Shown here piece by piece: positions 32,849-53,148 of a stretch of 64,000 nt of DNA; positions within the stretch are counted from its first letter, which is position 1; every line of letters starts with the position of its first letter. The DNA comes from Lucinisca nassula. Taxonomy: Eukaryota; Mollusca; Bivalvia; Lucinida; Lucinidae. The position numbers were made by a program, and so were the translations under genes. The stretch covers positions 151,779,596 through 151,843,595 of the forward strand of contig OY757010.1 in NCBI GenBank assembly GCA_963580285.1, written 5' to 3'. The notes beneath the pieces are model-generated. The model was not told where the DNA came from. It did not search any database and was given only the letters and a program-made list of their open reading frames with translations.

Positions 32849-34880
32849 AAATAGAAGTGGCGGCAATGATCAGGAATCGATACAATTAACACACAGCTCT
32901 TATCAGAGACACCAAAGGGAAAGAAACACAAGCACGAAACAACAGACCCTAATTGAAACACCAATAGCGGAAAGCCATATGGACAGTTACTTTCCCACAA
33001 AATAAAATAATATAAGCGACACAAACACCCAAAGACAAGACAAACCGTATCAAAAATAAACCGCGACAGAAGAACCGCCTTGGAACGGTCAGCGGAAACG
33101 AATTCCACTGGGGGGGGGGGGGGGGGGGGGGCTTAATTAGATTTTACGTGGCCACAATCCTCGCCCTTTCTTCCGTCGCGATGAAGAAAAATAATTTGTT
33201 CAGTCCGCATGAAGGCCTCCTTACTCATCAATGCAACATCACCGTGAACACAAAAATTAAACAACCACAGAGTTGAAACAACGATGAGGACTTGACAGCA
33301 TGAAACCACTGAAATGCTTGAGCAAAAAGAAAACCAACAGTTAGACTCTGATGGGCCCGACCAGAGACAGAGCATCAGGTACCAACCAACATAAACCTTA
33401 ATGCTGGAACCGTCATAGAATCTGAGGCCTGACCCACCGGCGTGCAATTAAAGTGGGAAGTAAAGTTGTCAACCGTGATTGGGTTAACTACCATGCATTC
33501 AGTCTGTCGTATAACATTTATGTTGTACCCAATCTTTTTATATCGAAGAATGATTTTACGAAAATGGGTGCTGAATTCATTGCGGTTATATATTTTTCTG
33601 AATTTATATACTAAGTCAACTTAAAATTCGGGTTCCGATAGACTTTGTTGCAGAAGAGATTTAAGTCTAATACTGAATTATGAAATTAAATGAGAATGAC
33701 GTTTATAAAATTTTGAAAAGGCTGTGCGTAGTTTATGGTACCGATAACCCTGATTAAGAAGTTTAGCCGTTAACAATTTATTACGAGCGTTGAAGTCAGT
33801 TACATGACTACATACTTTGGCAAATCAAATTAATTGCGAAATATAAACGCCATATGATGGCGCACGAGGAACATCACCATCCCAAAAAGGAAAATTTACA
33901 ATCTCAAAATCAAAATCATCGTGTCTATCATAAATGTAAATCCAAAAACGGGGCCTCGGTATCAGAAAAAAATTGATTATTTAACTGAAGTTCTGGGGGG
34001 GGGGTGTAAATTTGACTGATCAAACCATCGAAATAGATATTATCAATATTTGATAAATCATCCAAATATCTAGAAGTGAAGCTAAAAGCTTCAATGATTT
34101 CAGAATGGTTTTCAGCAGAAAGGGACATCACGAAGTCTCTCATAACAAAACAAAAACAGATCAGCCACAAGTGGTGCACAATTAGTACCCATCGGAATAC
34201 CCACAACTTGTCTGAATAACTTAGTACCAAATCTTATGTAAATATTGTCAAATAGAAAGGTGAGAGCTTCACACACTTTCTGACATGACCATAAAGTATA
34301 ATTTTTATGCTCTTCAGAAGTGAAAAAAGCATTTCTTACATTACATGCAAGATAGAGGGAGTCTTCGCTATGAAATGTCCATTCAATTAAATCATTAAGT
34401 TTTTCTTTTATAAGATTATGAGGAAGTGTAGTGAAAAGGGTGGAAAACTCATAAGCTCATAAGTAGACAGACTGGAAGCACGAAACGCCTGGATTTCAAT
34501 TTATTTAAAACTTCATTAGAATTTTTATAGACCAAAACAGATTTCTACCTGATCTTTCGAAGACCTTTCGTTTACTTGGTGTATTCCTTGCTTCAAAAGG
34601 ATCCAACTTCAGAACTTATTTGTCGCAATATTTTATCACATGTTTTTTTATGGCAGTAAAACATGAAGTTAATAATTTCGAGAGTTCAGTGGTGGTACAA
34701 GAGCTTGAATTTGCAATAAACCGTGCTTTGTGTGGTCTTTTATGAAGTTTAGATAACCAATATAACGTAGGAAGTTTATCTTGGCCTTCTGTAACACAGA
34801 CAGCAACATTGGTGGCTGAATGACAAATGCGGTCATCAACTAAAGCCCTCTCTACAGCTAAAGGCTGAAGTTCATAGGCC

Positions 34881-35240
34881 GAAACTAACTAGTCTTGCCC
34901 AGAAAACATGCACACTCCATATTTCTCAGTTCTGTGTAGTAATCTTTGCTTCCAAAGGATAAACCTTTTATAGATCATATTTAACGTCACTACAGCTGGT
35001 GTCTGGGAATGTGTGGCGGCCGTAGAAAGTCTCCCTGCCCCACATCATAGTGTGGTTTATATTTTCTTGTCCTTTGGGATCATTGATTCCATTGTGGAAT
35101 TTTGAAAATAATTGAGGGTCACTGATGAGGCCTAATTGGCCGAAACTAGCTAGTCTGACCCAGAAAACATGCACATTCCACATTTTCAGTTCTGTGGTGT
35201 AATCCTTGCTTCCGTAGGATAAGCCTTTTATAGAACATAC
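34881..35240 (+). mobile_element. retrozyme-like insertion, 1.3 tandem units
   Basis: This 360-bp insertion splits the PLE-1 reading frame exactly between the codons that flank 'ttcataggcc' and 'tagtaccaccaag'. It holds one 261-nt unit (34895-35155, from one hammerhead cleavage point to the next) plus part of a second unit (35156-35240) that matches the first at about 85% ('agaaaacatgcacactcc' against 'agaaaacatgcacattcc'). The left edge keeps only the 3' half of a hammerhead (GGCC-GAAA-CTAACTAG-TC). Unit tandems joined at ribozyme sites are expected from reverse transcription of circular or multimeric ribozyme RNA, as in metazoan retrozymes. It has no ORF. Confidence 0.7.
35116..35161 (+). 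ncRNA. hammerhead ribozyme, type I, complete core
   Basis: Stem I GGGTCA (35116-35121) pairs with TGACCC (35156-35161). The core box CTGATGA is at 35122-35128. Stem II is GGCC/GGCC with the loop TAATT (35129-35141). GAAA is at 35142-35145. Stem III is the palindrome CTAGCTAG (35146-35153) and the cleavage dinucleotide UC is at 35154-35155. All invariant hammerhead positions are present. Stem III has no loop nucleotides, so folding is probably better as a dimer, as reported for PLE and retrozyme hammerheads. Confidence 0.85.
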
Positions 35241-35492
35241 TTAGTACCACCAAGTTGTTGCTGAAGAGTGTTAACATAGTGAAGCCGACAAATAACGACC
35301 ACATTGTTAGCGGCCTTATCAGCTGGAGCCAAAACAAACTTCCTATGACATTCTTGAATACCTATTTTAAGGTGACGTAAAGACGTCTTAGGTGTAGGAG
35401 GTAATAAGTTCGTATTTTGCGAATAAAAAGAAATGCGTCTGTTCACTAATTTCAGAATGTTAAGTTTCCATTCCTTAAGAGCTTGTATGTTC

Positions 35493-35880
35493 TCGGAGAT
35501 GTTACACTGATGAGTAAGGAAGCCTTCATGCGGACTAAGCAAACTTAGTGTATACCACGACAGAGGTAAGGGCGAGGATTATGGCCATGTAAAATCGATT
35601 TAAGCCCCCAGTGGAATTCTTTCCAATGACCGTTCCAAGGCGGTTCTTCTGTGGCGGTTTATTTATGTTGTTGTTTGTTACTGTGTGTATCACTTGTGTC
35701 TTTTTATTTTGGATGGTCATTTGGCCATTTTGTGGGAAAGTAACTGTCCTTATGGCCTTCCTTTGTTTAGGTTTCCATTATGGTCTGGTCGCTTCATGTT
35801 TGTGTTTCTTTCCCTTTGGTGTCTTTGATGGATGGAGTAAGTTAATAGTATCGATTCCTGATCTTTGTTTTACTTCTACT
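35493..35880 (+). mobile_element. PLE-2: 3'-UTR fragment inserted in PLE-1
   Basis: A plus-orientation PLE 3' region ('ccttcatgcggac', 'gaccgttccaaggcgg', 'ttgtgggaaagtaactg', end 'gttttacttctact'). It lies between two parts of the minus-strand PLE-1 coding region: codons reading QALKEWK stop at 35492 and the upstream VEH codons resume at 35881. A short TATG may be duplicated at the two joints. Confidence 0.7.
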
Positions 35881-36205: not shown

Positions 36206-36850
36206 ATGAGAAAATGGCGTCCACCAGATGTCTCAGCAGAAGACGAGTGGAATGTCAACCATCAGATGGAAGTTTCGCGGGTTTATCGCCCGGAAATATT
36301 GAACTTAGCACATGAAACTCCCATGTCAGGATATTTAGGCGTAAATAAAACCTATCACAAGATTCTTAATCATTTTTACTGGCTGGGTTAAAATCTGATG
36401 TTTCTCAGCATTGTAGGTCCTGCCATACATGCCAAATGGTAGGAACACCCAATCAGACTATACCTCTGGCTCATTTGCAGCATATACCTGCTTTCGATGA
36501 ACCTTTCAGGCGAATAATTATAGACTGTGTAGGTCCCTTGCCCAGAACTAAGTCTGGTTGTGAATATCTTTTGACTATTGTGTGTGCTTCCACACGTTTT
36601 ACTGAAGCCATTCCACTAAGAAATATCAAAACTAAGACAATTGTCAAGGCCTTAGTGAAGTATTTCACATTTGTTGGGCTTCCTAAATCTATTCAGTCAG
36701 ATCAAGGCTCAAATTTTATGTCTGGAATGTTTCAACAAGTTATACATGGTCTTGGCATTGTACAGTATAAGTCATCAGCCTATCATCCTGGAAGTCATGG
36801 CGCCGTTGAAAGATTCCATCAAACATTGAAAAACATGATAAGATCTTATT
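36206..36850 (+). pseudogene. gypsy integrase: zinc finger and catalytic core
   Basis: The HHCC zinc finger is split by a frameshift at about 36390: the His part reads HETPMSGYLGVNKTYHKIL and the Cys part HCRSCHTCQ. The catalytic core keeps Asp in IIIDCVGPLPRT, Asp in SIQSDQGSNFM and Glu in GSHGAVERFHQT, with 35 residues between the second Asp and the Glu (DD35E). It would join element cDNA to the host genome. The reading stops at RSY where PLE-3 enters. Confidence 0.85.
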
Positions 36851-37290
36851 GGTTCTTCTGTCGCGGTATATATATTTTTTGTTATGGTTGTTTTTCTGAA
36901 GTTTGGAGGCCTTCATGCGGACTGAGCAAATTATTTGTCTAAATCGCGACGGAAGTAAGGTCGAGGACTGTGGCCACGCAAAATCGATTTAAGCCCCCCC
37001 CCCCCCCCCCCCCCGGTGGAATTCGTTCACGCTGACCGTTCCAAGGTGGTTCTTCTGTCGCGGTTTATTTTTGTTATGGTTTGTCTTTGGGTGTTTGTGT
37101 CGCTTGTGTTGTTTTATTTTGGATAGCATATTGGCCATTTTGTGGGAAAGTAACTGTCCTTTTGGCTTTCCACTGTTGGTGTTTCCATTAGGGTATTTTG
37201 ATTCATGTTTGTGTGTCTTTTCCCTTTTGTGTCTCTGATGGGAGCTGTGGGTTGATTGTATCGATTCCTGATCATTGCCTCCACTTCTAT
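36851..37290 (+). mobile_element. PLE-3: 3'-end fragment inserted in integrase
   Basis: A plus-strand PLE 3' region only, with a C-run at 36996-37014 and a partial internal repeat of the UTR ('ggttcttctgtcgcggt' at about 36851 and 37049). Its end 'cctccacttctat' meets the integrase codons at 37291. Deleting 36850/36851-37290 rejoins RSY to FDTDKDWDEG in frame. Confidence 0.75.
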
Positions 37291-37353: not shown

Positions 37354-39476
37354 AGAAGTAAAACAAAGATCAGGAATTGATTCAATTAACTTACTCCACC
37401 CATAAAAGACACCAAAGGGAAAGAAATACAAACAGTAAGCGACCAGACCATAATGGAAACCTAAACAAAGGAAGGCCATAAGGACAGTTACTTTCCCACA
37501 AAATGGTCATATGGCCATCCAAAACCAAAAGACACAAGTGATACACACAGTAAGTAACAAACAACAATATAAATAAATCGCCACAGAAGAGCCGCCTTGG
37601 AACGGTCAGTGGAAGATTTCCACTGGGGGGCTTAAATCGATTTTACGTGGCCACAATCCTCGCCCTTACTTCCGTCGCGATTTAGACAAATAATTTGTTC
37701 AGTCCGCATGAAGGCCTCCTAACTCATCAGTGCAACATCTCCGTGAACACAAAAATCAAAGAACCACAGAGGTGAGACAACGGTGAGGACTCGACAGCAA
37801 GAAACCACTGAAATGCTGGAGCAAAAGAAAACCAACAGTTAGACTCCGATGAGCCCGACCAGAGACAGAGCATCAGGCACCAACCGACATTATCTCTCTA
37901 ATTTTCAATAAGCCTTTACGTTGGAGCCGTCATAGAATCTGAGGCCTGACCCACCGGCGTGCAATTAAAGAGGGAAGCAAAGTTGCCAACCGTGATTGGG
38001 TTAACTACCATGCATGCAGTCTGTCGTATAATATCCATGTTGTACCCAATCTTTTTATATCGAAGAATGATTTTACGAAATTGGGTGCTGAAGTCATTGC
38101 GGTTATATATTTTTCTGAATTTATATGCTAAGTCACCATAAAATTCGGGTTCCGATAGACCTTGTTGCAGAAGAGATTTAAGTCCAATGTTGAATTTTGA
38201 AATTAAATCAGAATGGCGTCTATAAAATTTTGAAAAGGCTTTGCGTAGTTTATGGTACCGATAACCCTGATTAAGGAGTTTAGCCGTTGATAATTTATTA
38301 CGAGTGTTGAAGTCAGTTACATGACTACACACTCTAGCAAATCGAATTAATTGCGAAATATAAACGCCATAGGATGGCGCACGAGGAACATCACCATCCA
38401 AAAAAGGAAAATTTACAATCTCAAAATCAAAGTCATCGCGTTTATCATAAATTTTGCACGAAACAAATCCATCTACAATAGACAGATGTAAATCCAAAAA
38501 CGGGGCCTCGGTATCAGAAGAATTTGCTTTATTTAACTGAAGTTCTAGGGGGTAAATCTGACTGATCAAACCATCAAAATAGGTATTATCAATATTTAAT
38601 AAATCATCTAAATATCTAGAAGTAGAGCTAAAAGCTTCAATAATTTCAGATTGGTTATCAATGGAAAGCGACAAAATGAAGTCTCTTTCATAACAATACA
38701 AGAACAGATCAGCCACAAGAGGTGCGCAATTAGTACCCATCGGAATACCCACAATTTGTCTAAATAACTTAGTACCGAATCTAATATAAATATTGTCAAG
38801 TAGAAAGGTGAGGGCATCACACACTTTCTGACATGACCAAAGTGTATAATTCTTATGCTCTTTAGAAGTGAAAAAATGCATTTCTGACATTACATTCAAG
38901 ATAGAGAGAATCTTCTCTGTGAAAAGTCCATTCAATTAAATCATTAAGCTTTTCTTTTATAAGATTATGAGGAAGTGTAGTGTAAAGAGTGGAAAAATCG
39001 TAGGTAGACAGACTAGAAGCACGAAAATGTCTAGATTTCAATTTATTTAAAACCTCATTCGAATTTTTTATAGACCAAAACAGATTTCTTCCTGATCTTT
39101 CAAAGACTTTATCACAATATTTAATTACATGCGTTTTAATAGCAGTAAGACAGGAAGTTAATAATTTAGAAAGTTCAGTGGTAGTGCAAGAGCTAGAATT
39201 TGCGATAAACCGTGCTTTTTAAGGTTTTTTATGAAGTTTTGGTAACCAGTATAGCGTAGGAAGCTTGTCTTGGCCTTCGTTAACACACACAGCAAACTTG
39301 GTGGCTGAAAGACAAACATGTTTATCTACTATAGCTCTCTCTTCAGCTAAAGGCTGAAGTTCATAGGCCATAGTACCACCAAGCTCCTGCTTAAGCGTGT
39401 TAACATAGTGGAGCCGTCACACAACGACGACGTTGTTAGCGGCCTTGTCTGCAGGGGCCAAAACAAACTTCTTATG
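37354..39476 (-). mobile_element. PLE-4: 5'-truncated, nearly identical to PLE-7
   Basis: An inverted copy of 44095-46227. The 3' end at 37354 ('gaagtaaaacaaagatcagg') faces the 3' end of PLE-3. The 5' end at 39476 is truncated in the codons for FHKKFVLAP. Differences from PLE-7 are few, so one of the two is recent or both come from one recent source. Confidence 0.85.
37916..39476 (-). pseudogene. PLE-4 reverse transcriptase
   Basis: The last 339 codons (37916-38935) are open. They include IVGIPMGTNCAPLVADLF, SRYLDDLLNID (catalytic Asp pair) and EAPFLDLHLS. Upstream coding sequence to 39476 is broken by a frameshift near 38935 and by the same two stops seen in PLE-7: TAA after LPKLHKKP and TGA after NNVVVV. 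It is a Penelope-type RT with no GIY-YIG endonuclease visible at the C-terminus (ending SDSMTAPT). Confidence 0.8.
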
Positions 39477-42735: not shown

Positions 42736-43291
42736 TTGTTCAAACGCTGCTTTTTTAGGGACCAAAATATCGAAAAGCAGAATTGTAGATTTAAGCCCAC
42801 CAGTGGAATTCGTTTCAATGACCGTTCAAAGTCTGATGCATTGTTAAGTATATACATATATTCTGTCGCGGTTTATTATTGTTTTGGGTTGTCTTCGAGT
42901 GTGTGTATCGCTTATATTACGAGGACTGTTCAAATATGAATGCAAGTAGAACGTTTTCTCATGCACTAATGCGAAAATCAGCTGGAAATAAATATCACAG
43001 CGTAGAAAAACATTTTACCTATACATTGATACCAAACCTGTTAAAATCCGTGCACTGTAACCATGTATATCGTTCGATAAACATTGTCTACTCTTGTATA
43101 CTAATACAAAACATAGTTGGAAGAAGGTCAGAGTACGTCGCTGAAATACGGTCTTCAAAATATCCTTCATTAATAAGGGTATGGATTTTATAGATTTGCC
43201 CAGTATCTTCCGTGAGAGATCGGTGCTTTCTTCCATTCCTGCTTATTTTCAAAATACTGAAACACCTATAATTTGCTATAAATATAACAAA

Positions 43292-43654
43292 TAAAAATCA
43301 AAAATGAGTTCCTTTAAGAGCAATGAAAACATTCATAAGAAAGAAGATGGGTCATACTACGTAGTTTCGGCTAATAAAGCCTCATCAGTGACCCTGTAAT
43401 GATCCGGCAAAGAAAGCCAGATGAAACATACTGTAATTTTACGAATTTCGAATAGGCAGTCGATTCAAAGACTGATATAAATCAAAATGGGGTCAAAATA
43501 ATTAAAAACCTGTCTAGAATATGAGTCTAAACCAATCGTTTATTTCTGATTTATCAGAATATTCACACTGATCTCAAAGGACCAAAAGTAAAATATAAAC
43601 TGCACTATGGTTGATGTACGGGGAGACGTTTTACGGCCGCCACACGGCTACAAA
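43292..43654 (-). mobile_element. retrozyme-like insertion in PLE-7 with 5-bp duplication
   Basis: The 363-bp insertion is flanked by ACAAA (43287-43291 and 43650-43654). It splits the codons so that YKYNK rejoins PVRSIIF exactly. Read on the minus strand it shares 'gtgtggcggccgta', 'gtttatatttt', 'ggtcctttgagatca' and the hammerhead with 34881-35240. Downstream of the ribozyme the two differ. Confidence 0.75.
43349..43394 (-). ncRNA. hammerhead ribozyme, type I, second copy
   Basis: Minus-strand order: stem I GGGTCA, CTGATGA, stem II GGCT-TTATT-AGCC, GAAA, stem III palindrome CTACGTAG, cleavage dinucleotide UA, stem I TGACCC. All invariant core positions are kept. Compared with 35116-35161 both stem II and stem III carry paired changes that keep base pairing. 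Confidence 0.85.
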
Positions 43655-46227
43655 CCTGTTAGATCTATCATTTTTAATTTCAATAAACTTGTTTCAGATC
43701 TTGATATTGATACTAATACTCCTGATTCATGTGATTGTAAAAACTCAAAGTATTGCTATCCTGCTGCTGGTCATGTAATTACTGGCAATTTGAAAATTAT
43801 TCCTGATTCTAGGATAAGGAATATAATTTCTAAAGGACCGAAATATTGGTTTCCTTCTAAAATTGATTTCAGTAAATGTAGAGATGAAATCGCTGCTTCC
43901 TTGAATGAATTCGGTAATCGATGGTGTAAGCGAGAGTATGTTGAGCATAAAGCCCTTAAGGACTGGAAACTTAGCATTTTAAAACTAGTAAATAAACGCA
44001 TTTCTTTCTATTCTCAAAATACTAACTTATTACCTCCTAAGCCCAAGACGTCTTTACGTCATCTTAAACTAGGTATTCAAGAATTTCATAAGAAGTTTGT
44101 TTTGGCCCCTGCAGACAAGGCCGCTAACAACGTCGTCGTTGTGTGACGGCTCCACTATGTTAACACGCTTAAGCAGGAGCTTGGTGGTACTATGGCCTAT
44201 GAACTTCAGCCTTTAGCTGAAGAGAGAGTTATAGTAGATAAACATGTTTGTCTTTCAGCCACCAAGTTTGCTGTGTGTGTTAACGAAGGCCAAGACAAGC
44301 TTCCTACGCTATACTGGTTACCAAAACTTCATAAAAAACCTTAAAAAGCACGGTTTATTGCAAATTCTAGCTCTTGCACTACCACTGAACTTTCTAAATT
44401 ATTAACTTCCTGTCTTACTGCTATTAAAACGCATGTAATTAAATATTGTGATAAAGTCTTTGAAAGATCAGGAAGAAATCTGTTTTGGTCTATAAAAAAT
44501 TCGAATGAGGTTTTAAATAAATTGAAATCTAGACATTTTCGTGCTTCTAGTCTGTCTACCTACGATTTTTCCACTCTTTACACTACACTTCCTCATAATC
44601 TTATAAAAGAAAAGCTTAATGATTTAATTGAATGGACTTTTCACAGAGAAGATTCTCTCTATCTTGCATGTAATGTCAGAAATGCATTTTTCACTTCTAA
44701 AGAGCATAAGAATTATACACTTTGGATATGTCAGAAAGTGTGTGATGCCCTCACCTTTCTACTTGACAATATTTATATTAGATTCGGTACTAAGTTATTT
44801 AGACAAATTGTGGGTATTCCGATGGGTACTAATTGCGCACCTCTTGTGGCTGATCTGTTCTTGTATTGTTATGAAAGAGACTTCATTTTGTCGCTTTCCA
44901 TTGATAACCAATCTGAAATTATTGAAGCTTTTAGCTCTACTTCTAGATATTTAGATGATTTATTAAATATTGATAATACCTATTTTGATGGTTTGATCAG
45001 TCAGATTTACCCCCTTGAACTTCAGTTAAATAAAGCAAATTCTTCTGATACCGAGGCCCCGTTTTTGGATTTGCATCTGTCTATTGTAGATGGATTTGTT
45101 TCGTGCAAAATTTATGATAAACGCGATGACTTTGATTTTGAGATTGTAAATTTTCCTTTTTTGGATGGTGATGTTCCTCGTGCGCCATCCTATGGCGTTT
45201 ATATTTCGCAATTAATTCGATTTGCTAGAGTGTGTAGTCATGTAACTGACTTCAACACTCGTAATAAATTATTAACGGCTAAACTCCTTAATCAGGGTTA
45301 TCGGTACCATAAACTACGCAAAGCCTTTTCAAAATTTTATAGACGCCATTCTGATTTAATTTCAAAATTCAATATTGGACTTAAATCTCTTCTGCAACAA
45401 GGTCTATCGGAACCCGAATTTTATGGTGACTTAGCATATAAATTCAGAAAAATATATAACCGCAATGACTTCAGCACCCAATTTCGTAAAATCATTCTTC
45501 GATATAAAAAGATTGGGTACAACATGGATATTATACGACAGACTGCATGCATGGTAGTTAACCCAATCACGGTTGGCAACTTTGCTTCCCTCTTTAATTG
45601 CACGCCGGTGGGTCAGGCCTCAGATTCTATGACGGCTCCAACGTAAAGGCTTATTGAGAATTAGAGAGATCTAATTCAAGGTAATGTTGGTTGGTGCCTG
45701 ATGCTCTGTCTCTGGTCGGGCTCATCGGAGTCTAACTGTTGGTTTTCTTTTGCTCCAGCATTTCAGTGGTTTCTTGCTGTCGAGTCCTCACCGTTGTCTC
45801 ACCTCTGTGGTTCTTTGATTTTTGTGTTCACGGAGATGTTGCACTGATGAGTTAGGAGGCCTTCATGCGGACTGAACAAATTATTTGTCTAAATCGCGAC
45901 GGAAGTAAGGGCGAGGATTGTGGCCACGTAAAATCGATTTAAGCCCCCCAGTGGAAATCTTCCACTGACCCTTCCAAGGCGGCTCTTCTGTGGCGATTTA
46001 TTTATGTTGTTGTTTGTTACTTACTGTGTGTATCACTTGTGTCTTTTGGTTTTGGATGGCCATATGGCCATTTTGTGGGAAAGTAACTGTCCTTATGGCC
46101 TTCCTTTGTTTGGGTTTCCATTATGGTCTGGTCGCTTAATGTTTGTATTTCTTTCCCTTTGGTGTCTTTTATGGGTGGAGTAAGTTAATTGTATCAATTC
46201 CTGATCTTTGTTTTACTTCTACTTTCC

Positions 46228-52805: not shown

Positions 52806-53148
52806 GTGCCGGCCTCGGTAGCTCAGTCGGATGCGCATCTGACTGGTGATCAGGAGGACGAGGGTTCGATACCTACCGGAGTCGGCAACATTCTTTCGTG
52901 GAGATTGATCATGAAATCTTTTCTACGATCATTGGCGAAAGAATGTGCACTGTACTGGTTAACCGCTTACGTATAAATAAGTTCTGAATAGATCCTTTGG
53001 AAGCAAATAATACACCAAATAAACGAAAATAGCAGACTCGGTTTTATTGAGTCTGTCCAGGAAAAGTGTGGATATTTAAACTGACCGGCTCAAAAATGAC
53101 CTAAAATAGTGTTGACTGGGCCGTTAAACTCCAATACAAACAAACAAA
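52806..53148 (+). mobile_element. tRNA-derived SINE with 9-bp duplication
   Basis: Box A 'ggtagctcagtcgg' and B box 'gggttcgatacc' sit in a foldable tRNA-like head with an anticodon loop reading GGT if paired simply. The body contains 'gaaagaatgtgcactgtac' and ends in (AAAC)n. CCCAGGATT is duplicated at 52797-52805 and 53149-53157. A ~75-bp extra segment near 52975-53080 is absent in the 57587 copy. Confidence 0.85.

Follow-up and report, generated by a model that had tools for sequence, protein, structure and literature searches.

The sequence at 35116–35161 (plus strand) of the stretch of Lucinisca nassula DNA analyzed here (64,000 nt, hereafter the window) is a real hammerhead motif. The insertion that carries it is a retrozyme-like tandem element, distinct from the Penelope-like gene that it interrupts. 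Copies of this and a related family were mapped elsewhere in the genome, and the ends of 50 insertions suggest a single fixed start in each family; that of family A lies at the distance known from a Penelope-like element.

Two minimal hammerheads and their genomic copies

The preliminary description had named each part of the hammerhead, and a coordinate check together with a descriptor scan found every one of them in its place. The features of this motif, and of a second one on the other strand, are as follows.

35116–35161, plus strand: family A hammerhead, complete minimal type I (descriptor scan and 500 shuffles, folds, coordinate check)
35116–35121 and 35156–35161, plus strand: family A stem I, GGGTCA and TGACCC (coordinate check)
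35122–35128 and 35142–35145, plus strand: family A core, CTGATGA and GAAA (coordinate check)
35129–35132 and 35138–35141, plus strand: family A stem II, GGCC and GGCC, with loop TAATT (coordinate check)
35146–35153, plus strand: family A stem III palindrome, CTAGCTAG, followed by TC at 35154–35155 (coordinate check)
43394–43349, minus strand: family B hammerhead, the second complete one (descriptor scan, alignment with the first)

The predicted cut in family A falls after 35155. The descriptor demanded CTGANGA, a stem II of at least 3 bp, GAAA, a self-complementary stem III of at least 2 bp, UH and a stem I of at least 5 bp. With both strands of the window scanned, this full type I descriptor gave 2 matches and none in 500 dinucleotide shuffles; when stem I was relaxed to 3 bp, a single match appeared across all 500 shuffles. 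The family B hammerhead has stem II GGCT/AGCC, the palindrome CTACGTAG as stem III and TA at the cleavage site, and on alignment it differs from the family A hammerhead at 6 of 46 positions. Two of the differences together replace a C-G pair of stem II in A by U-A in B, and two others do likewise for the central pair of the dimer stem III (CTAGCTAG to CTACGTAG); the remaining two are a base in loop II and the cleavage-site base (C to A). Judged from this alignment, stems II and III of the two window hammerheads vary in compensating pairs.

Stem III had been described as an 8-nt palindrome with no loop. The palindrome is present, but without a loop no pairing is possible inside one molecule, and a monomer has a stem III of at most 3 bp (the A-U pair included) around a 4-nt loop. 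In the context of positions 35050–35250, the predicted pairing probability is 0.04 for stem III, 0.82–1.00 for stem I and 0.99–1.00 for stem II. For the 46-mer, the fold of lowest energy (−15.7 kcal/mol, versus −13.9 for the hammerhead fold) keeps stems I and II and pairs core bases in place of stem III. The predicted two-molecule fold (−44.5) contains two hammerheads with a common 10-bp stem III. By its predicted structure, the family A motif is a minimal, dimer-type hammerhead. In the local context of the family B hammerhead, stem I is predicted at 0.23–0.42 only.

At the curated thresholds, the covariance check proposed in the preliminary description gave no hit, all Rfam matches lying below them. 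The family A motif scored 20.4 bits with RAGATH-1-hammerhead (gathering threshold 56.3) and 15.8 bits with Hammerhead_3 (48.5), the family B motif scored 21.4 bits with Hammerhead_3 (again under 48.5), and a whole-window scan with E allowed up to 1 returned no hammerhead. These low scores would suit a sequence in repeated DNA that resembles a hammerhead by chance or has wholly decayed. We consider such an origin very improbable indeed, given two full matches against none in the shuffles, the matched pairs in which stems II and III change, and the behavior of the motif in the whole assembly (2.93 Gb, 696 contigs). There the core pattern CACTGATGAGGCN7GCCGAAACTANNTAGT, which leaves stem I and the cleavage-site base out of the count, had 44,415 matches (22,261 forward, 22,154 reverse), whereas the reversed control pattern had 0 forward and 0 reverse. 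Of 97 copies from loci in hand, 91 were compared, the six with a different stem I start being left out. Each pair of the three stems was kept in 81 to 91 of the 91; the core is invariant among them because it was the core by which they were found.

The insertion and the interrupted gene

That an intact hammerhead lies inside a retroelement insertion, as the preliminary description had it, was borne out: the hammerhead is of the minimal type I, and the two other copies of the host gene in the window lack the insert. The features of the gene and of the insertions in the window are given below.

33050–35480, minus strand: putative Penelope-like reverse-transcriptase gene, broken, host of the insertion (similarity to 37571–39476 and 43943–46017)
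34881–35241, plus strand: family A insertion, 361 nt, about 1.4 turns of a unit of about 261 nt (empty sites, genome relatives)
34881–34900, plus strand: 3′ remnant of an upstream hammerhead, from GAAA on (alignment with 35142–35161, empty sites)
34895–35155, plus strand: one unit of 261 nt, cleavage site to cleavage site (direct repeats at 260–261-nt spacing)
34980–35090, plus strand: block X, a segment that families A, B and D have conserved (one copy of each aligned, window copies)
35198–35243, plus strand: hairpin ATCCTT..TAGGAT together with the element's 3′ end (from where mapped copies end)
34563–34620, plus strand: family D fragment, about 54 nt, a second insertion in the same gene (missing from both other gene copies)
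43289–43650, minus strand: family B insertion, about 362 nt (comparison with 11 other family B copies)

The 361-nt insertion is antisense to the host gene, and the empty sites in the two other gene copies lie at 39369/39371 and 44194/44192. At the insertion site one target base is missing and a duplication is absent; GGCC is shared at the left edge, and the empty sites assign the GGCC immediately before 34881 to the interrupted gene. The first 100 nt of the insertion recur at its end, with 13 of 100 aligned positions different. Since the upstream hammerhead is truncated at GAAA, this copy is unable to release a unit, and no dimer can form within a single transcript of the insert; it is a dead-end insertion of 1.4 turns with one complete ribozyme motif left. 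The copy stops at unit position 121, its hairpin has one altered stem position, and the 3′ end at 35198–35243 is the one common to most mapped family A copies. The circular fold of the unit is unremarkable (z −1.2; 26 of 200 shuffles were equally low).

The window copy of family B stops at unit position 101, the usual family B 3′ end. An 11-nt direct repeat, CAAACCTGTTA, occurs at 43033–43043 and 43651–43661 and flanks the insertion plus about 245 nt of other sequence. An extent of about 617 nt between these repeats was rejected for the insertion, because other family B copies place the 3′ end at about 43289. The third element, family D, occurs at locus L070 (600–1250, minus strand) and in the window at 53030–52973 (minus strand) and 34563–34620 (plus strand). 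Family D shares block X and the hairpin TTCCTTGCTTCCAAAG with family A, and its 3′ end is similar too; the fragment at 34563–34620 has this hairpin and such a 3′ end, and it matches the profile of family A 3′ ends, in which it was itself included. Family D showed no hammerhead core and the Rfam scan of it gave no ribozyme; it possibly has another self-cleaving motif or none. A tRNA-Thr-like gene (52810–52886, plus strand) adjoins a family D fragment on the opposite strand and is perhaps the head of a SINE.

We call the host gene Penelope-like on the basis of the motifs GIPMGTNCAP and YLDD, which were read by eye. Pfam gave no match for four window fragments of the gene. Among 25 aligned relatives, 6 had RVT_1 at E up to 0.1, the best being a weak 0.008; the relative P0051 has RVT_1 at 2.3e-12, but upstream of the stretch common with the window gene. 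GIY-YIG was absent among the 120 relatives listed when sought with a simple pattern rather than a profile. Two of these relatives come from assemblies of Candidatus Thiodiazotropha, bacteria that live as clam symbionts. A structure model of the reverse-transcriptase fragment was discarded (mean pLDDT 41). The gene copies at 37571–39369 and 44194–46017, which stand in inverted orientation, differ from each other by only 0.8%, and both differ by 10% from the copy at 33–35 kb. A repeat beside the gene copies holds CACTGATGAG at 35503, 37734 and 45840 with no visible hammerhead 3′ half, and these sites are perhaps a decayed hammerhead. An rve integrase core domain at 36370–36942 (plus strand, E 1.8e-11) is a piece of another retroelement.

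Rather than representing a separate non-autonomous family, the insertion could be part of a pLTR, the terminal repeat that an autonomous Penelope-like element carries. Excerpts of PMC7761336 and PMC6155905 describe minimal palindromic hammerheads for Penelope-like pLTRs, and the hammerhead and the start of reverse transcription are arranged as in PAc, the Penelope-like element of Anolis carolinensis. Such a derivation is nevertheless improbable, as arrays of up to 8 units of about 260 nt leave no space for a frame between hammerheads, and a hammerhead as the gene's own part is absent from all three window copies.

Families, arrays and insertion ends in the genome

When the 361-nt insert was used as the query, at least 64 matches were obtained, from 40 scored of 7,525 candidates. 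The core matches often stand in tandem arrays, which belong to two families. Family A comprises units of about 260 nt, in arrays of up to 8 hammerheads, plus a 346-nt variant; family B units measure about 383 nt. From the printed sequences, the units look AT-rich. In a comparison of 46 complete family A units from 23 arrays, divergence was 2.0% within an array (44 pairs) versus 6.7% between arrays (991 pairs), and 0 of 1000 label permutations came as low as the within-array value. Beyond the assembly, pattern searches of viral and genome contigs and a phage search found no relatives, a protein search of genome and viral contigs gave 28 and 14 candidate stretches of which 0 were confirmed, and solved structures offered weak, unrelated matches only.

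Insertion ends were mapped at loci L001–L080, thirty of them chosen by likeness to the window insert, twenty as longer stretches around those and thirty by the hammerhead pattern alone. The 63 insertions mapped comprised 52 of family A (the window copy is L001) and 11 of family B; after a duplicate (L030) and 12 hammerhead-free family A pieces were left out, 39 and 11 were counted. In family A, 33 of 39 copies have their 3′ ends at unit positions 116–124, a 9-nt stretch, and in family B, 9 of 11 end at positions 98–104, a 7-nt stretch. In these fitting copies, the 3′ end lies a median of 88 nt (A) or 66 nt (B) past the cleavage site. The likeness-chosen loci and their longer stretches fit the 3′ peak in 21 of 24 cases, and the pattern-only loci in 12 of 15 cases for family A and 9 of 11 for family B. 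Ends off the peak occur at L040, L007, L066, L053 (twice) and L006 in family A, and at L080 and L051 in family B. A second piece at L007 extends to position 123 and, judged by eye, an alignment that overran the usual end may account for L080 and for one of the L053 ends. The family B array at L051 (1362–2166) stops at the unusual position 243 and is joined directly to (CCCTAA)6, as if, in this one case, a telomere end had served as the primer.

The 5′ ends are scattered (Rayleigh p about 0.16 for A and 0.26 for B). None comes as close as 2 nt to the cleavage site (0 of 39 and 0 of 11), and two of the 11 in family B sit 4–5 nt beyond it. All 50 insertions cross the cleavage site because the presence of a hammerhead was required for counting; one uncounted family A piece (L011, 2190–2275, 86 nt, positions 28–113) is approximately what a linear cut unit would yield. 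Target duplications are not general, and the set as a whole barely rises above shuffles: the mean longest shared word was 4.60, versus 4.37 (sd 0.15) in 500 shuffles, and one of 12 nt occurred at 1 of 43 insertions. The base composition of the 3′ flanks gave no clear target motif beyond the bases common with the unit. Penelope-like sequence was present within 150 nt on both sides in 4 of 43 insertions, and it also occurs 850–1000 nt off, so we do not claim a preference for such genes. In the genome, a 15-mer had 29,619 copies (15 for its control). Loci continued past the 3′ end in 29 of 58 cases, and two control places gave 25 of 55 and 16 of 27, so ordinary variation would swamp a genome-wide count of the 3′ end.

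A fixed 3′ end means either a single starting point of copying or an RNA that itself terminates at this point. As this end lies 66–88 nt beyond the cleavage site, the longer insertions need a template that crosses the site, either a circle or an uncut multimer. We lean, if only slightly, towards the circle, and towards viewing the insertions as non-autonomous non-LTR retrozymes with a Penelope-type hammerhead, whose cut units are circularized and copied from a fixed internal start. Tandem copies would be transcribed, neighboring hammerheads would pair through the palindromic stem III, and the RNA would be cut into units; by analogy with published work on other animals, these may then be joined into circles. 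A helper element, probably Penelope-like, would supply the reverse transcriptase, which would start about 88 nt (A) or 66 nt (B) beyond the cleavage site, run for less than one to several turns and stop anywhere, and the copy would be inserted without a regular target duplication. Within this scheme, we infer the cleavage, the circles and the helper enzyme.

An uncut linear multimer would serve if read-through transcripts of arrays were copied from the same start, or if transcription or processing ended there, and the hammerhead would then be dispensable for the copying step. Fixed 3′ and scattered 5′ ends fit this template equally well. In PAc, insertion is unaffected by ribozyme mutations and draws mainly on uncut RNA (PMC11167929), results that argue against a need for cleavage or circles. 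On the other side, units within an array are far more alike than units of different arrays, as expected from one circle copied repeatedly. This likeness favors the circle, although later gene conversion could equally produce it, as could unequal crossing-over. We regard the uncut multimer as rather unlikely.

In the circular template that we prefer, block X (families A, B and D) would lie just beyond the start of reverse transcription. It is perhaps the counterpart of the binding region of PAc, which its authors locate within the initial 172 nt of the frame (PMC11167929). No helper with block X was found. Put more broadly, and only tentatively since we judge it somewhat short of probable, animal retrozymes may parasitize Penelope-like machinery and copy its geometry, with each array the product of one rolling reverse-transcription event on a single circle. 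The geometry, if this were true, would consist of a hammerhead cut, a 66–90-nt tail, a fixed internal start of reverse transcription and a conserved binding block. The PAc findings and the selection of insertions for a hammerhead lower the likelihood that the machinery is parasitized in this way.

Relation to metazoan retrozymes and Penelope-like elements

We view the element as a further metazoan retrozyme, a new member that carries a Penelope-type hammerhead. Metazoan non-LTR retrozymes, as described in excerpts of PMC7229834, have type I hammerheads in tandem repeats of 150–450 bp, low GC, no LTRs and many copies. Further marks of metazoan retrozymes are a GC content below 50%, no coding capacity, target-site duplications of more than 4 bp when present, expression as linear and circular RNA, and self-cleavage. 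The element described here resembles them in its type I hammerhead, its tandem units of about 260, 346 and about 383 nt and its many copies; unlike the retrozymes of those excerpts, it has a minimal, palindromic hammerhead without loop partners. The combination of fixed internal 3′ ends and scattered 5′ ends of retrozyme copies is new here: the excerpts of PMC7229834 mention no fixed internal 3′ end for retrozymes, and it may be in print elsewhere.

The preliminary description regarded a minimal stem III as typical of Penelope-like elements, and the motif does match the kind described in excerpts of a review (PMC7761336). Minimal hammerheads of Penelope-like elements are characterized in that source and in excerpts of PMC6155905 by a type I core and almost no helix III, and are thought to act as dimers. 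The hammerheads in the window likewise have a helix III that is near absent and a predicted dimer form. They differ from those of Penelope-like elements, as portrayed in these excerpts, in standing in short arrays without a reading frame.

A further comparison is with PAc. Its ribozyme cuts 26 bp into the reading frame, its commonest reverse-transcription starts lie 111–118 bp into the frame, and its genomic insertions end at these starts (PMC11167929). By our subtraction, the cut-to-start distance in PAc is 85–92 nt; the 88 nt of family A falls within this range and the 66 nt of family B outside it. PAc differs in encoding its own protein, its insertion in vitro is ribozyme-independent, and no RNA reads ended at the cut (PMC11167929). 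The excerpts of PMC7229834 leave the priming of the RNA and the copying enzyme of retrozymes open, and name Penelope-like elements as strong candidates. Set beside PAc, the copy ends mapped here hint at how hammerhead-bearing elements return to DNA.
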